A DNA stretch of 44,492 nt, taken from Occallatibacter sp. Lineage in GTDB: Bacteria > Acidobacteriota > Terriglobia > Terriglobales > Acidobacteriaceae. The notes below the pieces were generated by a model that made no database searches, was not told the origin of the DNA, and saw only the letters and a list, made by a program, of their open reading frames with translations. Both the position numbers and the translations under genes were made by a program. Each line of letters opens with the position of its first letter. Position 1 is the stretch's first letter. The stretch lies in contig JARLGE010000163.1 of NCBI GenBank assembly GCA_031296215.1, positions 1 to 44,492 of the forward strand, read 5' to 3'. Below, piece by piece: positions 16,260 to 35,070 of this stretch.

Positions 16260-17615
16260 ATGCAGCCTGTACCCGTAGCCTTGCTTCATCCCGCCACGCA
16301 TGTGCGGCCACGCACGGCGCTGGTCGCCAGCGCCGACCGCAGCTTCCGCCAGCGGCTCACCGAAATTCTGACCGGCCTGCGCTGGCAGGTGCGCGAGGCC
16401 CAGGGCGGGGCCGAAGCCTGGGCGGAGGCCGAGGGCTCGACACCCGAGGCCATTATTGTCGATTCCTGGCTTCCCGATCTGGATTTGAGCGAGTTTCTGG
16501 CCGATTTCCGGGGCCGGTTTCCGCAGGTGGATGTGGTGAGCACCACGGGCGCAACCGCGCAGGAGAGCCCCCGCGGTCCCTATAGGCAGGAGCTGCTCTA
16601 CGCCCTGCGCCGCACCCAGGACACCGACACCGCGGCCTGGAACCTGGCGCCCGCACTGAAGACCCCCGCGCCCGCGCCGGTGGTGCTGCAGGCCGGCCCG
16701 CGGCCGTTCGCCCCGGCTCAGGCGGTCAACCCCGGGGCAGCGTTGCCGCTCGAAGCCGGATCGCCGATCACGCTGCCTCAGCCCGCACTGGTCCGGACGG
16801 TTCCCCTACGCAGCGGCCCGCCCCCCGGCGCAGGAGCGGAAAAGAAGTCCATCGACCGGCTGCCGGAACTGATCGGCAACGCCCCCTGCATGCTCGAGGT
16901 GAGCCGCCGCATCCGGCTGGTGGCCCCGCGCATGACCCCGGTGCTGATCGAGGGGCCGACCGGGTCGGGCAAGGAACTGGTGGCCGAGGCTCTGCACCGG
17001 CTTTCCTCAAGAAACCGCAAGCCGTTTGTCGCCATCAACTGCGCGGCCATTCCCGAAGCGCTGCTGGAGGCCGAGCTCTTCGGCCATACGCGCGGCGCCT
17101 TTACCGGCGCGGTGCAGGGCCGGGTGGGGCGCATCGAGTCGGCCGACGGGGGAACCCTGTTTCTGGACGAGATCGGAGAGATGCCACTGGCGCTGCAGTC
17201 CAAGCTGCTCCGGTTTGTGGAGAGCAGCGAGTTGCAGCGCGTGGGCGACAACGAGACGGTGAAGGTGGACGTGCGCATTGTGGCCGCGACCCACCGGCCG
17301 CTGGCCGAGCACACCCAGACGGGCATGTTTCGCGCCGACCTCTATTACCGGCTGGCGGTGTTTTTGATCCGCACCCCCGCGCTCTGCGAACACGGTGAGG
17401 ATCTGTCCCTTCTGGTGGAGCACTTCATGAACAAGATGGGCCGGGAGGCGCCCATGAAGCGCGTGGATCCCTCGGCCATGGGCAAGCTAACCGCCCACGA
17501 CTGGCCGGGCAATGTGCGGGAACTGGAGCACGTGCTGGAGCGGGCCGCGATTCTGGCCGGCGACGAGGCGGTGCTGACCGCGCAGGAGATCGACTTTGGA
17601 CTCACGGTGCACTGA
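16260..17615 (+). CDS. Sigma-54 activator (NtrC family) lacking the Fis-type DNA-binding domain; FlgR-like
   Basis: AAA+ enhancer-binding protein, 451 residues. Residues about 18-115 resemble a receiver domain with a possible phospho-acceptor Asp68 (IIVDSWLPD) but a reduced acidic pocket and no clear conserved lysine. A Pro/Ala-rich linker follows. The AAA+ domain has Walker A GPTGSGKE (about 231-238), the sigma-54 contact loop GAFTGA (about 279-284), Walker B GGTLFLDEIGE (about 297-307) and HDWPGNVRELEHV. The protein stops at LTAQEIDFGLTVH, where other NtrC proteins continue into a helix-turn-helix. Helicobacter and Campylobacter FlgR proteins have or tolerate the same loss. ATG at 16260 follows AGGAG. 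It lies 24 bp before flgB, so flagellar control is strongly suggested. Confidence 0.88.
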   Translation: MQPVPVALLHPATHVRPRTALVASADRSFRQRLTEILTGLRWQVREAQGGAEAWAEAEGSTPEAIIVDSWLPDLDLSEFLADFRGRFPQVDVVSTTGATAQESPRGPYRQELLYALRRTQDTDTAAWNLAPALKTPAPAPVVLQAGPRPFAPAQAVNPGAALPLEAGSPITLPQPALVRTVPLRSGPPPGAGAEKKSIDRLPELIGNAPCMLEVSRRIRLVAPRMTPVLIEGPTGSGKELVAEALHRLSSRNRKPFVAINCAAIPEALLEAELFGHTRGAFTGAVQGRVGRIESADGGTLFLDEIGEMPLALQSKLLRFVESSELQRVGDNETVKVDVRIVAATHRPLAEHTQTGMFRADLYYRLAVFLIRTPALCEHGEDLSLLVEHFMNKMGREAPMKRVDPSAMGKLTAHDWPGNVRELEHVLERAAILAGDEAVLTAQEIDFGLTVH

Positions 17616-18970: not shown

Positions 18971-18987
18971 CGGAACGGGCTGGCAGA

Positions 18988-19020
18988 TCAGTTGTCAGTG
19001 GTCAGTTGTCAGTGGTCAGT
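18988..19020 (+). repeat. Heptanucleotide tandem repeat (TCAGTTG/TCAGTGG)
   Basis: Alternating heptamers TCAGTTG, TCAGTGG, TCAGTTG, TCAGTGG and a partial TCAGT fill most of the fliE-fliF gap. The array resembles the short tandemly repeated repetitive (STRR) sequences of cyanobacteria. It is non-coding and lies outside the fliF ribosome-binding region. Confidence 0.8.
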
Positions 19021-19079
19021 AAGGAACGATGAGGCGAGCGACCGATCGCTGAAAACTGAGGGCGCGGGGTACGGAGACC

Positions 19080-21845: not shown

Positions 21846-21973
21846 CAGATGACAGGTTACAGATGACAGATGACAGCTTCAGAGCAGTACTTGCGGCTTT
21901 CCATGCTGTGCGGCCAGTCCATTGCACACTGTTCACCATCGGTCTTGAACTGTCATCTGTAACCTGTCATCTG
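21846..21973. repeat. 24-nt perfect inverted repeat made of heptamers in the fliG-fliH gap
   Basis: Left arm 21846-21869 and right arm 21950-21973 are exact reverse complements, separated by 80 bases. The left arm runs on as AGATGAC, AGGTTAC, AGATGAC, AGATGAC units, so this is a heptamer tandem repeat arranged head-to-head. The spacer has no coding frame. It could be a miniature mobile element or an expanded STRR-type array; the transcript could fold into a long hairpin before fliH. Confidence 0.8.
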
Positions 21974-21993
21974 TCATCTGATTGGAGAAACTC

Positions 21994-24104: not shown

Positions 24105-24632
24105 ATGGCTGTCTCGCGCGCCATGCGCCGGCTGCTCAGGATCCGGGATCTGGAAGAAGAGCAGGCGCGCCTGGCCCTGGAGTCGGGGCTGGTGGAACTC
24201 AGCAGACTGGAACAGGCGCTGGCCGCCACGGCCGACCGGGACAGAGGCGGCCGGCGGCTGGTGACAGAGAGCGTCCGGACAGCAGAGTTGACGGACCGGC
24301 TGGCCGGCCTGGAGGAGACGCGCGCGGCCCATCGGCTGGCCGGGCTGCTGGAGCCGCGGATTGCGGACACCGAGCAGGGTGTGGCTCTTCTCAGGGAGCA
24401 GTACCTGGCCAGCAGGGTGGAGCGCCGCCAGGCCGAAACCCTCATCCAGGAGGCCGAGGCGCGAGACGGCCTGGATGAGGACAGGCGCAGCCAGCAGGCC
24501 CTCGACGACTGGTTCCGCAACCGCAAGCATCGGGCCGGCGAGCAAGCCGGAACTGCGGCGCCGGCTAATTCCCCAGGCGCCGTGGATCGGGCCGGGGAGG
24601 CCAACGATTCGGCCGAAGCCGGGGAAACTTGA
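24105..24632 (+). CDS. fliJ: Flagellar export chaperone FliJ (by position and coiled coil)
   Basis: 175 residues that are almost entirely charged helix with heptad pattern (RRLLRIRDLEEEQARLALESGLVELSRLEQAL onward), as in FliJ, the central stalk-like coiled coil of the FliI ATPase. Sequence signatures in this family are weak, so the call rests mainly on its place 3 bp after fliI and before fliK. The N-terminal basic/hydrophobic MAVSRAMRRLLRIRDLEE fits the FliJ start. The C-terminal 35 residues are low-complexity and probably disordered. A 118-bp gap with a sigma-54 promoter follows. Confidence 0.7.
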   Translation: MAVSRAMRRLLRIRDLEEEQARLALESGLVELSRLEQALAATADRDRGGRRLVTESVRTAELTDRLAGLEETRAAHRLAGLLEPRIADTEQGVALLREQYLASRVERRQAETLIQEAEARDGLDEDRRSQQALDDWFRNRKHRAGEQAGTAAPANSPGAVDRAGEANDSAEAGET

Positions 24633-24722
24633 GAGAAAATCCACACGAACACCGGATTTCGATCCTGAATTGGAATCCTCCTTCCCTTTCCTGACAAGGC
24701 TCTAACGCGACTCCCGACATCT

Positions 24723-24738
24723 TGGCACGGCATCTGCA
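24723..24738 (+). promoter_or_regulatory. Sigma-54 (RpoN) promoter before fliK
   Basis: TGGCACGGCATCTGCA matches the -24/-12 consensus TGGCACG-N4-TTGCA with one mismatch and exact GG-N10-GC spacing. A start of transcription about 12 bases after the GC would fall near 24749, just before the fliK ATG at 24751. It lies in the only sizeable gap between fliJ and fliK and would drive fliK-flgD-flgE. An activator of the NtrC family is encoded at the start of the same cluster. Confidence 0.75.
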
Positions 24739-24750
24739 TCCATCCAGCGC

Positions 24751-26790
24751 ATGACTGTTGCCCCGGCAATCGAGATGGGAACGGGTAGAGGTGCGGGGGC
24801 AGGTCCGGGCCCAGGGTCCGGAAGTGGTCTGGGTTTGCTTCAAGCCAGAACGTCTGTCGGTACTCCGTTGGCCGGTTTGGTTTCGGGATCAGCGAGGCTG
24901 CCTTCTTCGCTCCCTGCATCCGCCGCGGGGTCAGGCGCCGCGAGCTTCCGCTCTAACTGGCGGGCTCAACTGGCCTCTTTGGGCGGCGCAATCGAGGGCC
25001 TTTCCCCAGAATCCAGGGAGGGCGGGCCTGATGCGGCGGAAGCGTCCGGCGGGGAGGCGGCAGGGAACTGGGCCTCACCAACTGGGCCCCTTATCAGTAG
25101 CTTGGCGGCTCAAATCGAGCGGGCGAGTACGCAAACGGTTCATTCTGCTGTCCTTCCGGCGCTAACGGCCGGCAACTCGAGGGCTCCGTTCCTGGCCGGG
25201 CGGACGGGCGCTCCAGTGCAGGCCGATACTCCGGTCCTGCCAACGGCGGCGACGACCCCAAGCGGGGAAGCCAGCTCGTCGGCCGAAGCCGCAAACCCGG
25301 CGCACAAGACCAAGAGCACGGACGAGCAACCGCCGCCGAGGGCAGGTTCGCCCTTCGAGGCAATTTCGACTCCTCCGCCGGGGATTGTCGCAGCAGCAGT
25401 TCTGGCCTCTCAGTCGGCGACGCCGGTTGCGATGGACGGGAGCCCGGCATCCAGATTTGCCGTCGTCGCGGCCCAGGCCGCGCAAGCCGGAGACTCCTCG
25501 CCTGTGCCCATCCGGTCGGCCACCACCGGTGCCGGCGTTCGAGCAAGCGATTCCTCTCTCCCGACTCGCACCGCTCCAGGCTCCGGAACCGCGAGCGCGG
25601 CCTCAGGGCCAGAATCTTCGACAGAAGCTGCGGCATCTGCTGAGCCTGCCAACCTGGAAGGCCGCGGAACGCAACCATCAGGACCGGCGCCTGCCCTGGG
25701 GACAACTCCTTTCCCCGGACCAGAGACCCCCGAAGGCATGGGAGGTGTCCCCGATGCAAGAGAAGCCATCGGCCCGCAGGTGGGGGCAAGGAATGAGTTA
25801 GAGCAGCGACAGGCTGGAGCCAGACCGGCGGCCGACAGAATGACAGCCTCATTAACGGAGGGGGCGCAGGCAGGGGCACCTGGCCCCGGCGCGAGCTCTG
25901 AGCTTTCGGCTGGCCAAAGGACCGCCCGAGTCTTCCCCGACGTGGGCACCGCATCGCCAGCCCCTCTGCCGGTTGCGGGCCATGGGGCGGTTGGGCCGTC
26001 CAGGCTTGTCCCGGAAATAAAGGTGGGCGGGAATGAGCTGGGATTGGAGCACCCAGCGCGGAGCAGCGCCGGCGCGGTTTCCCTGCAAGGGGCACAGCGA
26101 ACCGCTCACGGCGCGGCCACGGACAACAAGAGCGAACACCGTCTCGTGTCGGCAGCGGCGCAAGCGGCTGGTGTTCAAGGGGATACATCCGGGCTGTTGC
26201 GCGATCCGGGCACCGCGCGGCTGCCCACCGGCTCATCGGATGAGGCCCGCGAAACGGCCTCCAGCGTGCCGCTGCGGGAGACGTTCGCGGCGCTCGATTC
26301 AGGCTCCGCGCCTGGTGCGCCCGCCTGGACCCATGCTGGGGCGCGGCAGGCCGAGGCAGGTTTCCAGGACCCCGCTCTGGGCTGGGTGGGGGTGCGGGCG
26401 GAGATGAGCGGAGGCGGGGTCCATGCGTCGCTGGTGCCGGGTTCGGCCGAAGCGGCACAGGAGCTGGGCAGGCAAATGGACGGGTTGCACACCTACCTGG
26501 CAGCGCAGCACACGCCGGTAGAGTCGCTGGGGCTGGCCACGCCGGGCGGGAGGGATGGGGGATTCCAAGGCAATGAGGGCGGGAACCAGCAGACGCAGCA
26601 GAACATGCAGCAGGGGGCGGGCCAGGGTTCAGGGCAGGGGACCTTCGCCGATGCGCAGCCGGGATCTTCGCAAGGCGGGATGGGGATCGATGGGCCGGTT
26701 GCAGCAGAGAGTTCCGCCGCGGCGATGGGCGGGGATCGAGGAGCCTTCATGGACGGGAGCGTGGGCAATCACATCTCGTTGATGGCCTGA
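24751..26790 (+). CDS. fliK: Flagellar hook-length control protein FliK
   Basis: Secreted molecular ruler that switches export from hook to filament. 679 residues, long for the family. Residues 1-530 are low-complexity, rich in Ala, Gly, Ser, Pro and Thr with almost no hydrophobic core, as expected of the ruler part. The C-terminal hook-control domain is recognisable near 540-600 (VGVRAEMSGGGVHASLVPGSAEAAQELGRQMDGLHTYLAAQHTPVESLGL), and the tail is Gln/Gly-rich (NEGGNQQTQQNMQQGAGQ). No ribosome-binding site precedes the ATG; with the sigma-54 start near 24749 the mRNA may be leaderless, or translation may begin at an internal ATG such as 24775. Confidence 0.85.
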   Translation: MTVAPAIEMGTGRGAGAGPGPGSGSGLGLLQARTSVGTPLAGLVSGSARLPSSLPASAAGSGAASFRSNWRAQLASLGGAIEGLSPESREGGPDAAEASGGEAAGNWASPTGPLISSLAAQIERASTQTVHSAVLPALTAGNSRAPFLAGRTGAPVQADTPVLPTAATTPSGEASSSAEAANPAHKTKSTDEQPPPRAGSPFEAISTPPPGIVAAAVLASQSATPVAMDGSPASRFAVVAAQAAQAGDSSPVPIRSATTGAGVRASDSSLPTRTAPGSGTASAASGPESSTEAAASAEPANLEGRGTQPSGPAPALGTTPFPGPETPEGMGGVPDAREAIGPQVGARNELEQRQAGARPAADRMTASLTEGAQAGAPGPGASSELSAGQRTARVFPDVGTASPAPLPVAGHGAVGPSRLVPEIKVGGNELGLEHPARSSAGAVSLQGAQRTAHGAATDNKSEHRLVSAAAQAAGVQGDTSGLLRDPGTARLPTGSSDEARETASSVPLRETFAALDSGSAPGAPAWTHAGARQAEAGFQDPALGWVGVRAEMSGGGVHASLVPGSAEAAQELGRQMDGLHTYLAAQHTPVESLGLATPGGRDGGFQGNEGGNQQTQQNMQQGAGQGSGQGTFADAQPGSSQGGMGIDGPVAAESSAAAMGGDRGAFMDGSVGNHISLMA

Positions 26791-26878: not shown

Positions 26879-27523
26879 ATGGCAGCAATGGCAGGACTTT
26901 TGAATCAATCGCTTACAGCGGGAAGTGCGATGACTGGAACGGGTGCGGGCCCCATGGCAGCCGCGCCGGCCGCTGCCAGCGCCAACAGCAGCCCGGCAAG
27001 TACTGGAAGCTCTTCGGCCGGCATCTCGGCCAATGACTTTCTCACTTTGCTGGTGACAGAGATGCGGAACCAGGACCCGACGGCAAACACGGATCCCAAC
27101 GAGTACATCAACCAGTTGGTGCAGGTGAACAGCCTGGAGCAACTGATCTCGATCAACCAGAACCTTTCGACGGCGCTGGGCATGCCAACCGGCAAGGCGA
27201 GCGGCAGTTCCAGCTCCGGCCAGGCTGTTGCGGCCCAACCCGGCATTACTCCGGCTGCGGCCTCCCCTTCAAGCCGGGCCGGCGCCGGGCCGGCGGGCCA
27301 TTCCACGCCCGCAAATGCGGCCAACCGGACGGGAGCTACTCCAAAGGCAGGTTCAAACACCGCCGCGGCCATCGCCCAGTTTGCCCAGTCGGTTGGCGCC
27401 AAACATGCCCCCGGCAACCTGAGTGTTCCCGAGGCCAATGTGGCAGCCCACAGAGTAGCCCATGCCTTGGACGGGCAATCGCGCACCCCGGCAAACCGGG
27501 GCAAGCTATCCGGAGCGCAATAA
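26879..27523 (+). CDS. flgD: Hook-capping scaffold FlgD, short form
   Basis: Assembles at the hook tip and guides FlgE polymerisation. 214 residues. The conserved N-terminal domain is clear at about 45-105 (SANDFLTLLVTEMRNQDPTANTDPNEYINQLVQVNSLEQLISINQNL). Behind it there is only an Ala/Ser/Pro-rich stretch and a final helical piece (AAHRVAHALDGQSRT); the C-terminal Ig/Tudor-like domain of classical FlgD is not recognisable. GAAGGAGGG lies upstream of ATG at 26879. Confidence 0.9.
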   Translation: MAAMAGLLNQSLTAGSAMTGTGAGPMAAAPAAASANSSPASTGSSSAGISANDFLTLLVTEMRNQDPTANTDPNEYINQLVQVNSLEQLISINQNLSTALGMPTGKASGSSSSGQAVAAQPGITPAAASPSSRAGAGPAGHSTPANAANRTGATPKAGSNTAAAIAQFAQSVGAKHAPGNLSVPEANVAAHRVAHALDGQSRTPANRGKLSGAQ

Positions 27524-27582: not shown

Positions 27583-29118
27583 ATGCCGAGTTTTTACATT
27601 CCACTCAGCGGTCTCGATGCCGATTCCACGGCGCTGAACACCATTGCCAACAACCTGGCCAACATGAACACGACGGGCTACAAGGCGCAGACGACGAACT
27701 TCTTCGACCTTTTTTATCAGCAGCTTGGCTCCAATGGGTCGGGCGACGAGATTCAGGGGGGCACGGGCGTGCGGGTATCGTCCAACAGCACGGATTTCTC
27801 TGCCGGCTCCATCTCTTCGACCGACGTTTCCACCGATGCGGCCATCAACGGGGCGGGGTTCTTTGTGCTGGACAGCGGTGCGGGCAGCCAGTTGTACACC
27901 CAGAACGGGACCTTTCAATTGAGCGCGAACGGAACGCTCGAGTCTGCCGACGGCCTGGCGGTGATGGGCTATCCGGCTGTAAACGGGGCGGTAAACACCA
28001 ACGGCGGGCTAGTGGACATCAACCTTCCCGTAGGGCAGGTGATGCAGCCGGCGGCGACCACCACCTTCGGCATGACCCAGAACCTGGATTCGGAGGCTGC
28101 GGCCGGATCCATTACCTCCGGCCAGGTGCAGGTCTTCGATTCGCTGGGCAAGTCCTACGAGGCCACCGTAACCTATACCAACCAGGGCAATAACACGTGG
28201 AACTACAGCGTCTCGCTGCCGGACACGCTGCAGGCCAACTCGGCCACCGCGCTGGGCGTGACCACGATCGACTATAGCTTCGGAGCCAGCGGCGCCGTGC
28301 TGGCCTCGGTGAATCCGGCGACGAATCTGACCATTACCGGCCCGACCGTCGCCGGAACGGCGACCATCGCTGCGCCGGCGGTCGTCCCTGGAGAAACGGT
28401 GGCCGCCTATGCGACGGCCCTGCAGGCGGCCGTAACCACGGCGGGGATCGTCGGAACCACGGTGACCTCGACTGCCGGCGGGCAGTTGAGCATCGTCGGA
28501 ACCGGGATCTCGACGACCGGCAGCGTGATTCAGGATCCGGTGGCGTCGGCCGCCGCGAACGGCGTTCTGACCTTCGATTCCAGCGGCAACCTGGTGATTC
28601 CAGCAACTAATGTACCCGGAATCAGCTTTGCCGGCCTTTCCGACGGGTCCGCAACGATGAACCTGACCTTCGACCTGTTTGGCGCCAACGGCTCCGGGAC
28701 TGTCAGCCAGGTCGCGGCTGCATCCACCACATCGTCCACCAACCAGAACGGCTTCCCGAGCGGTCAATATCAGAGCTTTGCGATCAATTCCAGCGGCGTG
28801 GTTGCGGCCACCTACTCAAATGGCCAGACGCAGACGGTGGGACAGTTGGCGGTAGCCACGGTGAACAATGAGCAAGGTTTGCTGGACCAGGGGTCCACCG
28901 AATACCAGACCACCACCGCCTCCGGCAACGCCGCGGTGGGGATTGCCGGCCTGGGTGGGCGGGGAACGATTAACGGAAGCTCGCTGGAGGCCTCGAACGT
29001 GAACATTTCACAGGAGTTCTCCGACTTGATTATCGCTCAGCGCGCTTTTGAAGCCAATTCCAAGGCAGTGACCACCTTCGACTCGGTAACCCAGGAAACG
29101 ATCAACATGATTCATTAG
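27583..29118 (+). CDS. flgE: Flagellar hook protein FlgE
   Basis: Structural subunit of the hook. 511 residues. The N-terminal rod/hook motif (LSGLDADSTALNTIANNLANMNTTGYKAQTTNFFDL) and the C-terminal coiled-coil segment (SLEASNVNISQEFSDLIIAQRAFEANSKAVTTFDSVTQETINMI) frame a Gly/Thr/Ser/Ala-rich surface region with FlgE D1/D2 hallmarks (DGLAVMGYPA, FDSLGKSYEATVTYTNQGNNTWNYSV). ATG at 27583 is chosen because AAGAGGAGAT precedes it; the 14 extra residues upstream are not FlgE-like. It is the last gene of the flagellar run here. Confidence 0.95.
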   Translation: MPSFYIPLSGLDADSTALNTIANNLANMNTTGYKAQTTNFFDLFYQQLGSNGSGDEIQGGTGVRVSSNSTDFSAGSISSTDVSTDAAINGAGFFVLDSGAGSQLYTQNGTFQLSANGTLESADGLAVMGYPAVNGAVNTNGGLVDINLPVGQVMQPAATTTFGMTQNLDSEAAAGSITSGQVQVFDSLGKSYEATVTYTNQGNNTWNYSVSLPDTLQANSATALGVTTIDYSFGASGAVLASVNPATNLTITGPTVAGTATIAAPAVVPGETVAAYATALQAAVTTAGIVGTTVTSTAGGQLSIVGTGISTTGSVIQDPVASAAANGVLTFDSSGNLVIPATNVPGISFAGLSDGSATMNLTFDLFGANGSGTVSQVAAASTTSSTNQNGFPSGQYQSFAINSSGVVAATYSNGQTQTVGQLAVATVNNEQGLLDQGSTEYQTTTASGNAAVGIAGLGGRGTINGSSLEASNVNISQEFSDLIIAQRAFEANSKAVTTFDSVTQETINMIH

Positions 29119-30897: not shown

Positions 30898-33800
30898 CTA
30901 GTTGACGGTAACGGCGAAGGTGGTGGTGACGGCGGTGACGGCGGGGGTCCCGGTGCCGGTAACGGTGAAGGTGTAGGTGCCGGCGGTGGTTCCGGAGCCG
31001 CTGTTTCCCCCGGGGGCCTGCCAAAAGTCGCCGCAGCCGGACAGACTACCCAGGGCGGCAATGAGGAGAATCGCTCCCAGCATTGCCTGCCAACTGCGCC
31101 GCCGTGCCGGAATCCCCAGGAAGACCAGCAAGGCCAGCACCGCGCCGCCGCCCAACCAGCCTTTGCCGCGTCCGTCATGGGGCACAAACTGGCCGGTGGT
31201 GGCAGCGGTGGAGGCTACCGTAGCGGTGACATTCCCGGTGGAATTGGTGGAAAAGTCTACTGTGGTAGGCGAGAGGGAACAGGTGGGAGGATCGGTTACC
31301 GAGGACGGGCTGGATGAGGTGAGCGCGCAACTGAGCGTCGCGGTTCCGGTGTAGCCATTGGCGGCGGTGGCTGTAATGGTCGATGTGGCCGAGGTTCCGG
31401 GGGCGACGGCAGTCGTGGTGCTGGCCGACAGCGTAAAGGTTCCCGATCCGGCAGACGAGACCGTGACGCTGGCCGTGCCGGTGTTGGTGGCATAGTTCGA
31501 GTCGCCGCTGTAAGTGACTGTGAGCGTGTCGCTTCCTACGCTCAGGCTGTTGGCCGGAATGGTGAAGGTGACTGTTCCGGCCACAAGCGTCTGGGCAGTG
31601 GAGGTGTAGCCGCCGCCCGAGAGCGTGACGGTCCCGCCAGGCGTTGGGCCGCTTCCGGAAGCCGAAGCCACTTTGGCCGCGACATTCAGAGTGTTGGCGA
31701 CACTCAGGGTGGTCGCTGCCGGGGTTACGGTCACGGTGGCCGTCGCCAATGCCGCCGATACCGTGATGCTGGCGGAGGAGCCGCTGGCTGGGGTGTAGTT
31801 GGTGTCTCCGCTGTAGGAGACATTGAGGGCGTAGCTGCCTGCGGTCAGGCTGTTGGCGGGAACGGTAAAGGAGTAAGTCCCTCCGGCAAGCGTTTCAACT
31901 GGCGAGGTGTAACCGCCGCCCGACAGAGTCACTGTCCCGGTTGGAGTTGCGCTGCCGCCTGCCGGATCCTCCACGGTGGCCTGAACGCTGAGCGCTGCGT
32001 TCGAGCTGAGAATAGTCACACTGGGATGGACCGTCACGGTCGGCGTGGCGAGGGGTGCAGCTACGGCAACGGTGGCCGTGCCGGTGGTGGAGCCGTAGGT
32101 TGCATCGCCGCTGTAAGTGACTGTGAGTGTGTCACTTCCGGGGGTCAGGCTATTGGCAGGAAGATCAAAGGAGAATGTCCCTGCGATCAGTGTCTCGACT
32201 GCCGAGGAGTAGCCCCCGCCGGACAGCATGACGGTTCCTGTAGGGGTTGCGCCACCCTGGGTTGCCGCAGCCACGGTGACCGGCACGCTGAGCGCACTGC
32301 TGGAGCTCAGGGTCAACGAGTCCGGCGAAACCGTCACCGTTGCCGTACCGGCGCCCGCGCTCACCGGCCAGGCGTTCACCAGGTTGGCTACATTCAAAGA
32401 GCCAAGGCCAGTAGCCAGGTCGTATCCGGCCACGGCGTCGTAGCCGGAGAGGATGCCGATCAGGTCGTTGCTGTTGTTGACCGCGCAGTTGGGCGAGACG
32501 ATACCGCTTCCGGGTTGACCGCCCTCATCGCCGCCGTAATCGCAGGGCACGGCGATGGTTCCTTGGTCGATGTCGTTGAAAAGGCATCCGTTGGTGGTGG
32601 AACCTATCTCGGCACTGCAATTCGCATAGGTCTGCTGCGAGGCCAGGTTGTAGAGCTCAGCATTGGGGTTGCCCTGGGGCAAGCCGGCTCTCTGATTGAT
32701 CAGCGCCATCACGCCGGCCATGGCCGGAGAGGCGACCGAAGTGCCGCCGACCTCGAGCCCACCGGGCTCGCTGGTCGCGCTGTAGGTGCAGGCGGCGCGA
32801 GCGGAGACGCAGATCAGGTAAGCGCTCGAGGAGAGAAAGCCGTCAGAGGCGAAGAAGGAGACATCGGGAAGATCGCGCACGCCGTCCGTGGGAATGCCGG
32901 AGACGCCCGACTGCCAGCCGGGTTTTGGCCATCCGTCGTTGAACAGAGGAATGGAGCCGTTGCCTGCGCCGGTGGAGGTGGTGGTGGTGGAGCAACTTGA
33001 AACGTTGGCGCCGTCGTTGACAACGCAGCCGCTGGCCCCGCCGCCGCCGCCATAGGTATCGACGATATATTCCAGGCTTACGCCGGCATTGGCGTCAACC
33101 GTCGGATAGTAGTTGTATATGAAATTGCAGCCGCTTTCGGTGTCGGTTACGCCGCCGACGTTGCCCGCAGCCGAACTGGTGGCCCAACTCTCCAGGAATC
33201 CGACCGCGAGCGGGTTGGCGCAGGTGTCATTCCAGGGAACCTCGGGGATGTAACCGATGGCGCTGGAGCCGTTTGCGAGATTGTTGGTAGCGTTCCAATA
33301 GGGCGCAGGGGTGCATGTGGAGGTGAGGGAGCACCAGTTGAAATCGGTGCCACCGACGGCAGTGTTGAAGGGCGTTGAGGCCAGGCCGTTGACCGAAAGG
33401 CCATATTGCGCCGAATAGGGATTGCCGATGGCGTCTCCGCCTTGATCGCACATTGCAGAGCCGGCGTCTCCGGAGGCCACAAAGACGGCGATGCCTTCGG
33501 CATAGGCGGTCTGCCAGAGGTTGTAGTACTCGACGTTGCCGGCGGTGCCGATGCCAAGTTCGCATTCGCCGTAGCTGGAGTTCATGATGCTGGCCGTCTT
33601 ATGGTTGACGATGTAGCTTTCTGAATCGTAAAGGGGATCGTCCGTTTTCGAGCCGTCCGGATAGGAAGCCACCAGGACGATCTTGGCGCCTGGGGCGACG
33701 GCTCCTGCCCACTCGACGTCAAGCGAATTCTCGACCAAGTCGTTGATGCCGCAGATGGCAGAAGAGCTGGTGTCGGTGCAGACGGCGAGTGCGTGGCTGT

Positions 33801-34815
33801 TGCCGGAGACGGCGGTTGGCTGGTTGGACGCTTTGTAGGCAGGCAGGCCAAAGGAGCTGCGAAAGGCGGCCACGTCGTTGTTGTATCCGCCTTTGCCGTC
33901 GGAGCAATTGGCGTCGGTCTGGGCCAGGCAGATGTTGCTGGTTCCGGCGATGGCGATGGTCTGGCCGGATCCATCGATCGGCGTGTTCGCCTGCCACAGA
34001 GGAAGCACGTTGTAGATGGTGGCAAAGTCATAAGGGGAAACATCTTCGAGCAGGTTGCTGTTCGCGTCCACCGTGTTGAACTGGGGGCGTGGAGCCGCGG
34101 GCCGGGCTCCGACAGTTTCCGCGGGATCGGCCGGATCGGCGACGACGCGCCGCCACTTGCCTGTCGCCGGGTCGCGGGTGACGGGGCTGCCCAGCCGGTG
34201 TTGCGGACGGGGAAAAAAGTCGTGCAGCGATTTGACGCCCACGACCACCGGCGCCAGGGCCGAGGGAATCTGGGGGTCGGTCATGTTGCCGATGTGGGCA
34301 ACGCCCTTGACTTCGAGGTTGTGGATCTCGGTGTGAAAGGCGCTCTCGACCTGGGCAGCGGCGCCGCCGAAGCGGATCGACATCCGATTCGGGGCTACTT
34401 CGGCGATGGAGAAGCCGTGGCGGGTGAGCCAGTTAGAGATAGTGGCAATGTCGGCCGGAGAAGGACCGAAGTCAGCGCCCACTTCTTCCGGCGAGAGCCA
34501 ACGATGGAAGCGGGGCGATTTGGGGTCGTACTGGGCGGCGACAAACTTGTCGAAGGCCGCCTGCTGCTCCGGGCCGCGGCTCAGCACCATGATCAGATCG
34601 GTCATGGGCAGGTCCGGGCTGACCCGGCCGCGGTCGTTGCGGGCATTGGCAGCGGGGTGCGTATTGCCTTTCAGAGTGACCAGGCTGCTGTCATCGACTG
34701 GGTGCGCGATCCGAACCGAGGGGGCGACTACCTGGGAGCCCGCCGTCGAGGATGAAAGCAACGTGCCAGTCAAAATAAGGGCTGGAAGCAAGGGGAGGGA
34801 ACGCTTCGGTCGCAT
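30898..34815 (-). CDS. Secreted S53 (sedolisin/kumamolisin-type) peptidase with Ig-like repeats
   Basis: About 1305 residues. The signal peptide (KRSLPLLPALILTGTLLSSSTAG) is followed by a pro-kumamolisin activation domain (about 50-210; FHRWLSPEEVGADFGPSPADIATISNWL). The catalytic domain has Glu362 and Asp366 (ENSLDVEWA), the oxyanion Asp in VASGDAG, Ser693 (GGTSVASP), and the calcium site YDLATGLGSLN. Three Ig-like repeats of about 100 residues follow, then another beta-rich piece, a hydrophobic segment with RRR, a second hydrophobic segment ending GCG, and a last beta tail. Such enzymes are acid-active endopeptidases. ATG at 34815 is preferred over 34824 and 34878 because AAGGAT sits 7 bases upstream. 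Confidence 0.92.
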   Translation of the reverse strand: MRPKRSLPLLPALILTGTLLSSSTAGSQVVAPSVRIAHPVDDSSLVTLKGNTHPAANARNDRGRVSPDLPMTDLIMVLSRGPEQQAAFDKFVAAQYDPKSPRFHRWLSPEEVGADFGPSPADIATISNWLTRHGFSIAEVAPNRMSIRFGGAAAQVESAFHTEIHNLEVKGVAHIGNMTDPQIPSALAPVVVGVKSLHDFFPRPQHRLGSPVTRDPATGKWRRVVADPADPAETVGARPAAPRPQFNTVDANSNLLEDVSPYDFATIYNVLPLWQANTPIDGSGQTIAIAGTSNICLAQTDANCSDGKGGYNNDVAAFRSSFGLPAYKASNQPTAVSGNSHALAVCTDTSSSAICGINDLVENSLDVEWAGAVAPGAKIVLVASYPDGSKTDDPLYDSESYIVNHKTASIMNSSYGECELGIGTAGNVEYYNLWQTAYAEGIAVFVASGDAGSAMCDQGGDAIGNPYSAQYGLSVNGLASTPFNTAVGGTDFNWCSLTSTCTPAPYWNATNNLANGSSAIGYIPEVPWNDTCANPLAVGFLESWATSSAAGNVGGVTDTESGCNFIYNYYPTVDANAGVSLEYIVDTYGGGGGASGCVVNDGANVSSCSTTTTSTGAGNGSIPLFNDGWPKPGWQSGVSGIPTDGVRDLPDVSFFASDGFLSSSAYLICVSARAACTYSATSEPGGLEVGGTSVASPAMAGVMALINQRAGLPQGNPNAELYNLASQQTYANCSAEIGSTTNGCLFNDIDQGTIAVPCDYGGDEGGQPGSGIVSPNCAVNNSNDLIGILSGYDAVAGYDLATGLGSLNVANLVNAWPVSAGAGTATVTVSPDSLTLSSSSALSVPVTVAAATQGGATPTGTVMLSGGGYSSAVETLIAGTFSFDLPANSLTPGSDTLTVTYSGDATYGSTTGTATVAVAAPLATPTVTVHPSVTILSSNAALSVQATVEDPAGGSATPTGTVTLSGGGYTSPVETLAGGTYSFTVPANSLTAGSYALNVSYSGDTNYTPASGSSASITVSAALATATVTVTPAATTLSVANTLNVAAKVASASGSGPTPGGTVTLSGGGYTSTAQTLVAGTVTFTIPANSLSVGSDTLTVTYSGDSNYATNTGTASVTVSSAGSGTFTLSASTTTAVAPGTSATSTITATAANGYTGTATLSCALTSSSPSSVTDPPTCSLSPTTVDFSTNSTGNVTATVASTAATTGQFVPHDGRGKGWLGGGAVLALLVFLGIPARRRSWQAMLGAILLIAALGSLSGCGDFWQAPGGNSGSGTTAGTYTFTVTGTGTPAVTAVTTTFAVTVN
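31454..32340 (-). repeat. Three tandem ~300-bp units encoding Ig-like domains
   Basis: Within the S53 peptidase gene. Each unit encodes TPTGTVTLSGGGYTS, a PANSL turn and a VTYSGDxxY strand. The plus-strand CAGGCTGTTGGC-type segment recurs at 31543, 31846 and 32146, that is 303 and 300 bp apart. DNA similarity between units is high, so copy number could vary by recombination. Confidence 0.8.
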
Positions 34816-35070
34816 CGGATTCATCCTTAACTTGCGTGTAAATGCCTGAAGAACTGTCGCCGGGGGCGGCCAGCGCATGGGAGGATTGCCGGAAACTGAC
34901 CTCCAACCGATGGTCTACCGCGGCGCAACCCGGAGTCAAGAACCCGGCGGACAAATCTGGCGCGGCCTCGTGCCGGGAGAGCTCCCGCAAACTTGAGACG
35001 AGGCAGGGGTCCGGGCCGCTCTGGGCTGGCAACGTTGCGATTCCTGTCTGGCGCCACATTTCTCCGCCGG
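34816..35070. other. Gap upstream of the S53 peptidase gene
   Basis: 255 bp between the peptidase and the threonine dehydratase, both on the minus strand. It must hold the peptidase promoter. I saw no clear -10/-35 pair, no hairpin with a T run and no open frame of note. Confidence 0.3.

Follow-up and report, generated by a model that had tools for sequence, protein, structure and literature searches.

Opening of a sigma-54 promoter requires ATP and a dedicated activator, and flagellar promoters of this kind are known from Campylobacter, Helicobacter and Caulobacter. The fliK promoter described here shares with them its consensus, its spacing, its flagellar target and a putative response-regulator activator, but differs in that its -12 box lies 12 bases from the start codon, with a predicted leader of only 0–2 bases. 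The latter feature recalls bacterial leaderless mRNAs, for which the sections of PMC3160421 and PMC3847290 compared here describe the same combination of an AUG, no Shine-Dalgarno sequence and a promoter abutting the start codon. The C. jejuni leaderless genes, however, have a sigma-70 -10 box upstream of them (PMC3847290), in contrast to the sigma-54 promoter of fliK. Led and leaderless forms interconvert between relatives (PMC3847290), as they do here. The 953-genome leaderless survey sought sigma-70-like boxes only, and boxes of the sigma-70 type are what large surveys of leaderless genes have searched for. A conserved sigma-54 leaderless gene was not found among titles and abstract openings, or in the main-text portions of PMC3847290, PMC5243855, PMC3616915, PMC12403871, PMC4287350, PMC3333780 and PMC3160421 used for comparison; supplementary tables may hold single cases. 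Sigma-54 promoters and leaderless starts are each known; a conserved combination of the two, shared by several gene families, appears to be new. If true, it would couple the bacterial promoter under the tightest on-off control with translation initiation in its simplest form.

The locus lies in an Occallatibacter sp. genome of 4.17 Mb in 350 contigs, one of which (C251) is the window, i.e., the whole stretch of 44,492 nucleotides that was analysed. FliF relatives with named records belong to the Acidobacteriaceae, the nearest named cultured organism being Terracidiphilus gabretensis S55, and rpoN is encoded in the genome (193.8 bits). The flagellar cluster runs on the forward strand in the order activator gene, flgB (called by position and size only), flgC, fliE, fliF, fliG, fliH, fliI, fliJ, fliK, flgD and flgE, with 118 bases between fliJ and fliK. 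The features needed below are the following.

16260–17615 (+), sigma-54 activator gene, with a receiver-like domain and an AAA+ domain with GAFTGA, without a Fis-type DNA-binding domain
24105–24632 (+), fliJ, from a weak FliJ match (0.0025, below the cut-off) and its position after fliI
24700–24706 (+), CTCTAAC element, about 20 bases 5′ of the -24 box
24723–24738 (+), sigma-54 -24/-12 promoter core, TGGCACG-N4-CTGCA, from motif match, matrix score and retention in relatives
24749–24751 (+), predicted transcription start region, from promoter spacing; 24751 is the A of the ATG
24751–26790 (+), fliK, with an ATG start without Shine-Dalgarno sequence, a Flg_hook match and coding periodicity in relatives
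26879–27523 (+), flgD, with a strong Shine-Dalgarno sequence (-12.4 kcal/mol)
27583–29118 (+), flgE hook protein, with ATG 27583 after AGGAG; the listed open reading frame starts at TTG 27541

The Flg_hook C-terminal domain match of fliK (4.3e-05, 23.7 bits) is under the Pfam cut-off of 29.8, and its identity is backed by synteny, i.e., its location between fliJ and flgD.

The first-pass annotation of this DNA had claimed a near-perfect sigma-54 promoter with strict GG-N10-GC spacing in front of fliK, and this was borne out. The sequence TGGCACGGCATCTGCA occupies 24723–24738 (+), leaving a gap of 12 bases to the fliK ATG at 24751, and its GG (24724–24725) and GC (24736–24737) are separated by exactly N10. 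It matches the sigma-54 consensus at 11 of 12 positions, one T of the -12 box being a C here. Counting the C of GC as -12 would place +1 at 24749, two bases 5′ of the ATG. With a scoring matrix built from 30 fliK sites, all from other loci, the site scores 24.9 bits versus 11.9 for the runner-up in the window (both strands), a value that none of 200 dinucleotide-preserving shuffles of the window reached (top shuffle, 22.0). The pattern TTGGCAYN5YTGCW occurs twice in the entire 4.17 Mb genome, once as the fliK site. A looser 16-mer pattern that tolerates two mismatches shows no enrichment in the window (22 occurrences vs. 23.2 expected), so the weight rests on the full match together with where it lies. 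In nine stretches of 15–20 kb from seven relative genomes, the matrix likewise returned the fliK site as the top match in all seven, and the highest score outside a fliK promoter was 17.4; one fliK site (L079, in G002) is weak at 14.1, though still the best in its genome. Elsewhere in the own genome, another strong sigma-54 site has a gap of 82 bases, and the flagellin genes have no sigma-54 site above 10.0 in the stretches scanned. Neither a sigma-70 promoter nor an intrinsic terminator was found in the fliJ–fliK interval.

The arrangement is, in our view, probably best explained by three features together: a true sigma-54 promoter with its -12 box fused onto the start codon of fliK, activation through the cluster's own activator, and leaderless translation. 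RpoN holoenzyme would be held at the fliK promoter until an AAA+ activator opens the DNA, the activator most likely being the response regulator without DNA-binding domain at the head of the cluster. The fliK transcript would then have its 5′ end 0–2 bases before the AUG, and ribosomes would initiate at this 5′-terminal AUG without a Shine-Dalgarno sequence, flgD and flgE using normal ones. Because the cluster contains no other strong sigma-54 site, the fliK promoter being the only one that the matrix scan detects in the window, it is plausible that fliK, flgD and flgE form a late class apart from the rod and rotor genes. More speculatively, since read-through from fliJ would bring in an AUG without initiation signal, the promoter may gate translation as well.

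The C-terminus of the cluster activator lies past the AAA+ lid. In a Pfam comparison, the HTH_8 domain was absent from the activators of the window, L108 and L142 and scored 49.5 bits in L140, from a deeper lineage, and this split between lineages is also visible by eye in the activator C-termini. More broadly, the Fis-type domain is missing from the flagellar activator in Acidobacteriaceae and retained in deeper Terriglobia (L135–L137, L140). The Response_reg match (28.8 bits) falls below the Pfam cut-off of 30.2, with a VDSWLPD motif present. A make-up of receiver and AAA+ domain without HTH, which the window activator probably shares, is described, in the parts of PMC3162934 and PMC7175178 compared, for Helicobacter FlgR, listed there (PMC3162934) as being without a DNA-binding domain, and for Chlamydia CtcC; the window activator differs from both in belonging to an independent lineage, in the HTH still being present in deeper Terriglobia and in its receiver match below the cut-off. 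Its lack of an HTH and its likeness to FlgR suggest that activation of the fliK promoter by this protein involves no enhancer farther upstream.

A reading that departs from this one in the activator only, and that we consider rather unlikely, is that promoter and leaderless start are real and another enhancer-binding protein acts on them, perhaps through the CTAAY element, which is conserved roughly 20 bases 5′ of the -24 box. Within this element (CTCTAAC in the window), the A at -19 is found in 27 of 28 genus loci. Enhancers are, however, usually located farther upstream than some 20 bases from the -24 box, and synteny is conserved for the activator of the cluster itself. The element was out of register at the hlyD, kinase and second fliK promoters treated below. 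CTAAY is conserved in the genus (L033–L058 and others), CTAAT-like sequences can be seen by eye in most sister genera, and in Terracidiphilus CTGACAAT precedes CTAAY.

The distance between promoter and start was then compared over 92 distinct fliI–fliK loci (fliI identity of at least 58%, with enough sequence 3′ of fliI). In 77 of them a start was called and a site reached a score of 9 or more; the other 15 (score below 9 or no start) were dropped. With upstream TTG or GTG picks swapped for an ATG at 11–15 wherever one existed, the gap separating the 16-mer and the fliK start was 11–15 bases in 54 loci (11 in one, 12 in 44, 13 in six, 14 in one and 15 in two), 25–40 bases in 22 and 8 bases in one (a GTG pick), with gaps of 16–24 bases in none; the 54 include L170 (gap 15, where the site is probably spurious and internal to fliK) and L060 (gap 14, Shine-Dalgarno sequence present). 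The absent class is that of leaders too long for leaderless and too short for Shine-Dalgarno initiation. Mean Shine-Dalgarno energy is -1.9 kcal/mol in the near class vs. -7.3 kcal/mol in the far class (Mann-Whitney p of 5.6e-10, which is too small because the rows are related).

The site lies 11–13 bases from the fliK start in 46 of 47 labelled loci of the Terracidiphilus clade, and the cultured T. gabretensis S55 (L108) has a gap of 12, as in the window. In sister genera the distance is 25–40 bases and a Shine-Dalgarno sequence is present. Of the 48 rows that form the Terracidiphilus clade on a FliI tree, 46 are leaderless, one is led and one carries no label. A Terriglobus clade apart from it is leaderless throughout (four of four), with led genera in between; this requires four changes between the states, at least three of them forced by well-supported branches. 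Three labels on this tree were set by hand, i.e., L047 as leaderless (second site, gap 13), L161 as led (ATG at gap 26) and L060 as unlabelled (Shine-Dalgarno sequence). Exceptions to the common pattern are L055 (in G002; weak site, in-frame ATG at gap 34), L047 (weak site, gap 13) and L093 (GTG, gap 13), and no site was found at the fliK position in L059 and L061, from a sister family, or in several class-level loci. One gap-12 match (L071, G022:C144) has a Shine-Dalgarno sequence and was taken as chance. As judged from these comparisons, members of the Terracidiphilus lineage have inherited the arrangement, which is not a chance match. The led and leaderless states of the same gene under the same kind of promoter in sister genera offer a natural experiment on leaderless origin and reversion, and the contrast could test whether a 5′-terminal AUG silences a gene in read-through mRNA.

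Several observations bear on whether the ATG at 24751 is the true start. Across 38 gap-12 loci of the Terracidiphilus type, pairwise identity in codons 2–8 is 0.57, 0.52 and 0.36 at the first, second and third positions, respectively, and that of the 12-base spacer is 0.38, i.e., about that of third codon positions. A pyrimidine stands immediately 5′ of the ATG in 37 of these 38 loci, which is what one would predict were the A of the ATG able to act as +1, and 45 of the 46 genus-type loci with a gap of 11–13 begin fliK with ATG. Moreover, clear Shine-Dalgarno sequences precede flgB, flgC, fliE, fliF and flgD and none precedes fliK, whose energy in the window is 0 kcal/mol against -6.6 to -12.4 kcal/mol at the measured neighbouring starts (-3.7 at fliJ). 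The claims that fliK starts without a Shine-Dalgarno sequence and that the promoter is placed to give a leaderless mRNA are thus supported, the former directly and the latter through the genus-conserved spacing, the bimodal distance that swaps with the Shine-Dalgarno sequence and the periodicity from codon 2. Comparison across relatives turns what was a guess into a strong inference, and a leaderless fliK mRNA is very likely.

The internal start that had been offered as the alternative is disfavoured. It is improbable that fliK is translated from a downstream codon, the promoter-proximal bases being a normal leader of a real sigma-54 promoter: an in-frame ATG does exist at 24775 in the window, and several relatives have two close ATGs, but the second ATG has a Shine-Dalgarno energy of only -1.8 kcal/mol, some relatives have no further in-frame start for 129–186 bases, codons 2–8 are conserved as coding, and where sister genera have leaders the start is at gap 25–40 with a Shine-Dalgarno sequence. 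Least probable is that the 16-mer represents a relic or matches by chance and that fliK is expressed by read-through of the upstream operon, its AUG being used without a Shine-Dalgarno sequence, since, despite the same-strand upstream genes and the lack of a detected terminator between fliJ and fliK, almost all genus members retain the site while the spacer diverges, 0 of 200 shuffles match its score and the AUG would have no initiation signal.

Sites close to a start codon were also found at other genes. HlyD-type adaptor loci (L176–L205) have their start in view in 27 of 30 cases, 23 of which, including that of the own genome (L197, G000:C46:20618-21883), carry a site that agrees at 10 or more of 12 positions and lies 12–14 bases 5′ of the ATG; the remaining four have a weaker site at the equivalent place, as judged by eye. 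These hlyD starts are less clean, some having Shine-Dalgarno energies of about -6 to -7 kcal/mol. In many of the adaptor loci, a GTG immediately precedes the ATG. For a PAS histidine kinase (L258–L265), which shares a contig with a second fliI in G030, G007 and G013, the site lies 13–14 bases 5′ of the ATG in eight of nine loci. Of 30 loci of a STAS-domain gene (L228–L257), 5 have the site 11–12 bases before the point at which the match begins and 25 have it 28–37 bases before that point. Among fliK genes of second clusters, that of L208 has a clear site at gap 12, those of L219 and L222 have weak sites with a GTG at gap 12, and that of L218 has no site.

A genus-wide rule, by which all sigma-54 sites would lie 12–14 bases from an ATG, was rejected: in two gap histograms, each among the 150 matches listed, no clear spike was seen outside fliK and hlyD, and some of the gap-13 matches look like a single conserved coding stretch. 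Because there is no clear excess at gaps 12–14 beyond these two genes, start fusion is not universal for RpoN promoters. We propose only tentatively, and with some doubt, that start-fused sigma-54 promoters are a recurrent class here (fliK, the second-cluster fliK and kinase, the HlyD-type adaptor and some STAS genes), in which the coding region, lacking a Shine-Dalgarno sequence, would stay silent on read-through mRNA and be translated only from the transcript begun at the activator-dependent promoter itself. The promoter would then control both transcription and translation, and a gain or loss of about 15–25 bases would move a lineage between this state and a led state with a Shine-Dalgarno sequence.

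Finally, the window contains short repeats in the fliE–fliF gap (TTGTCAGTGGTCAG, 18971–19079) and 5′ of fliH (GTCATCTG, 21952–21981), and a 1326-aa protein encoded on the minus strand at 30898–34878 combines a pro-kumamolisin activation domain with bacterial Ig-like repeats.
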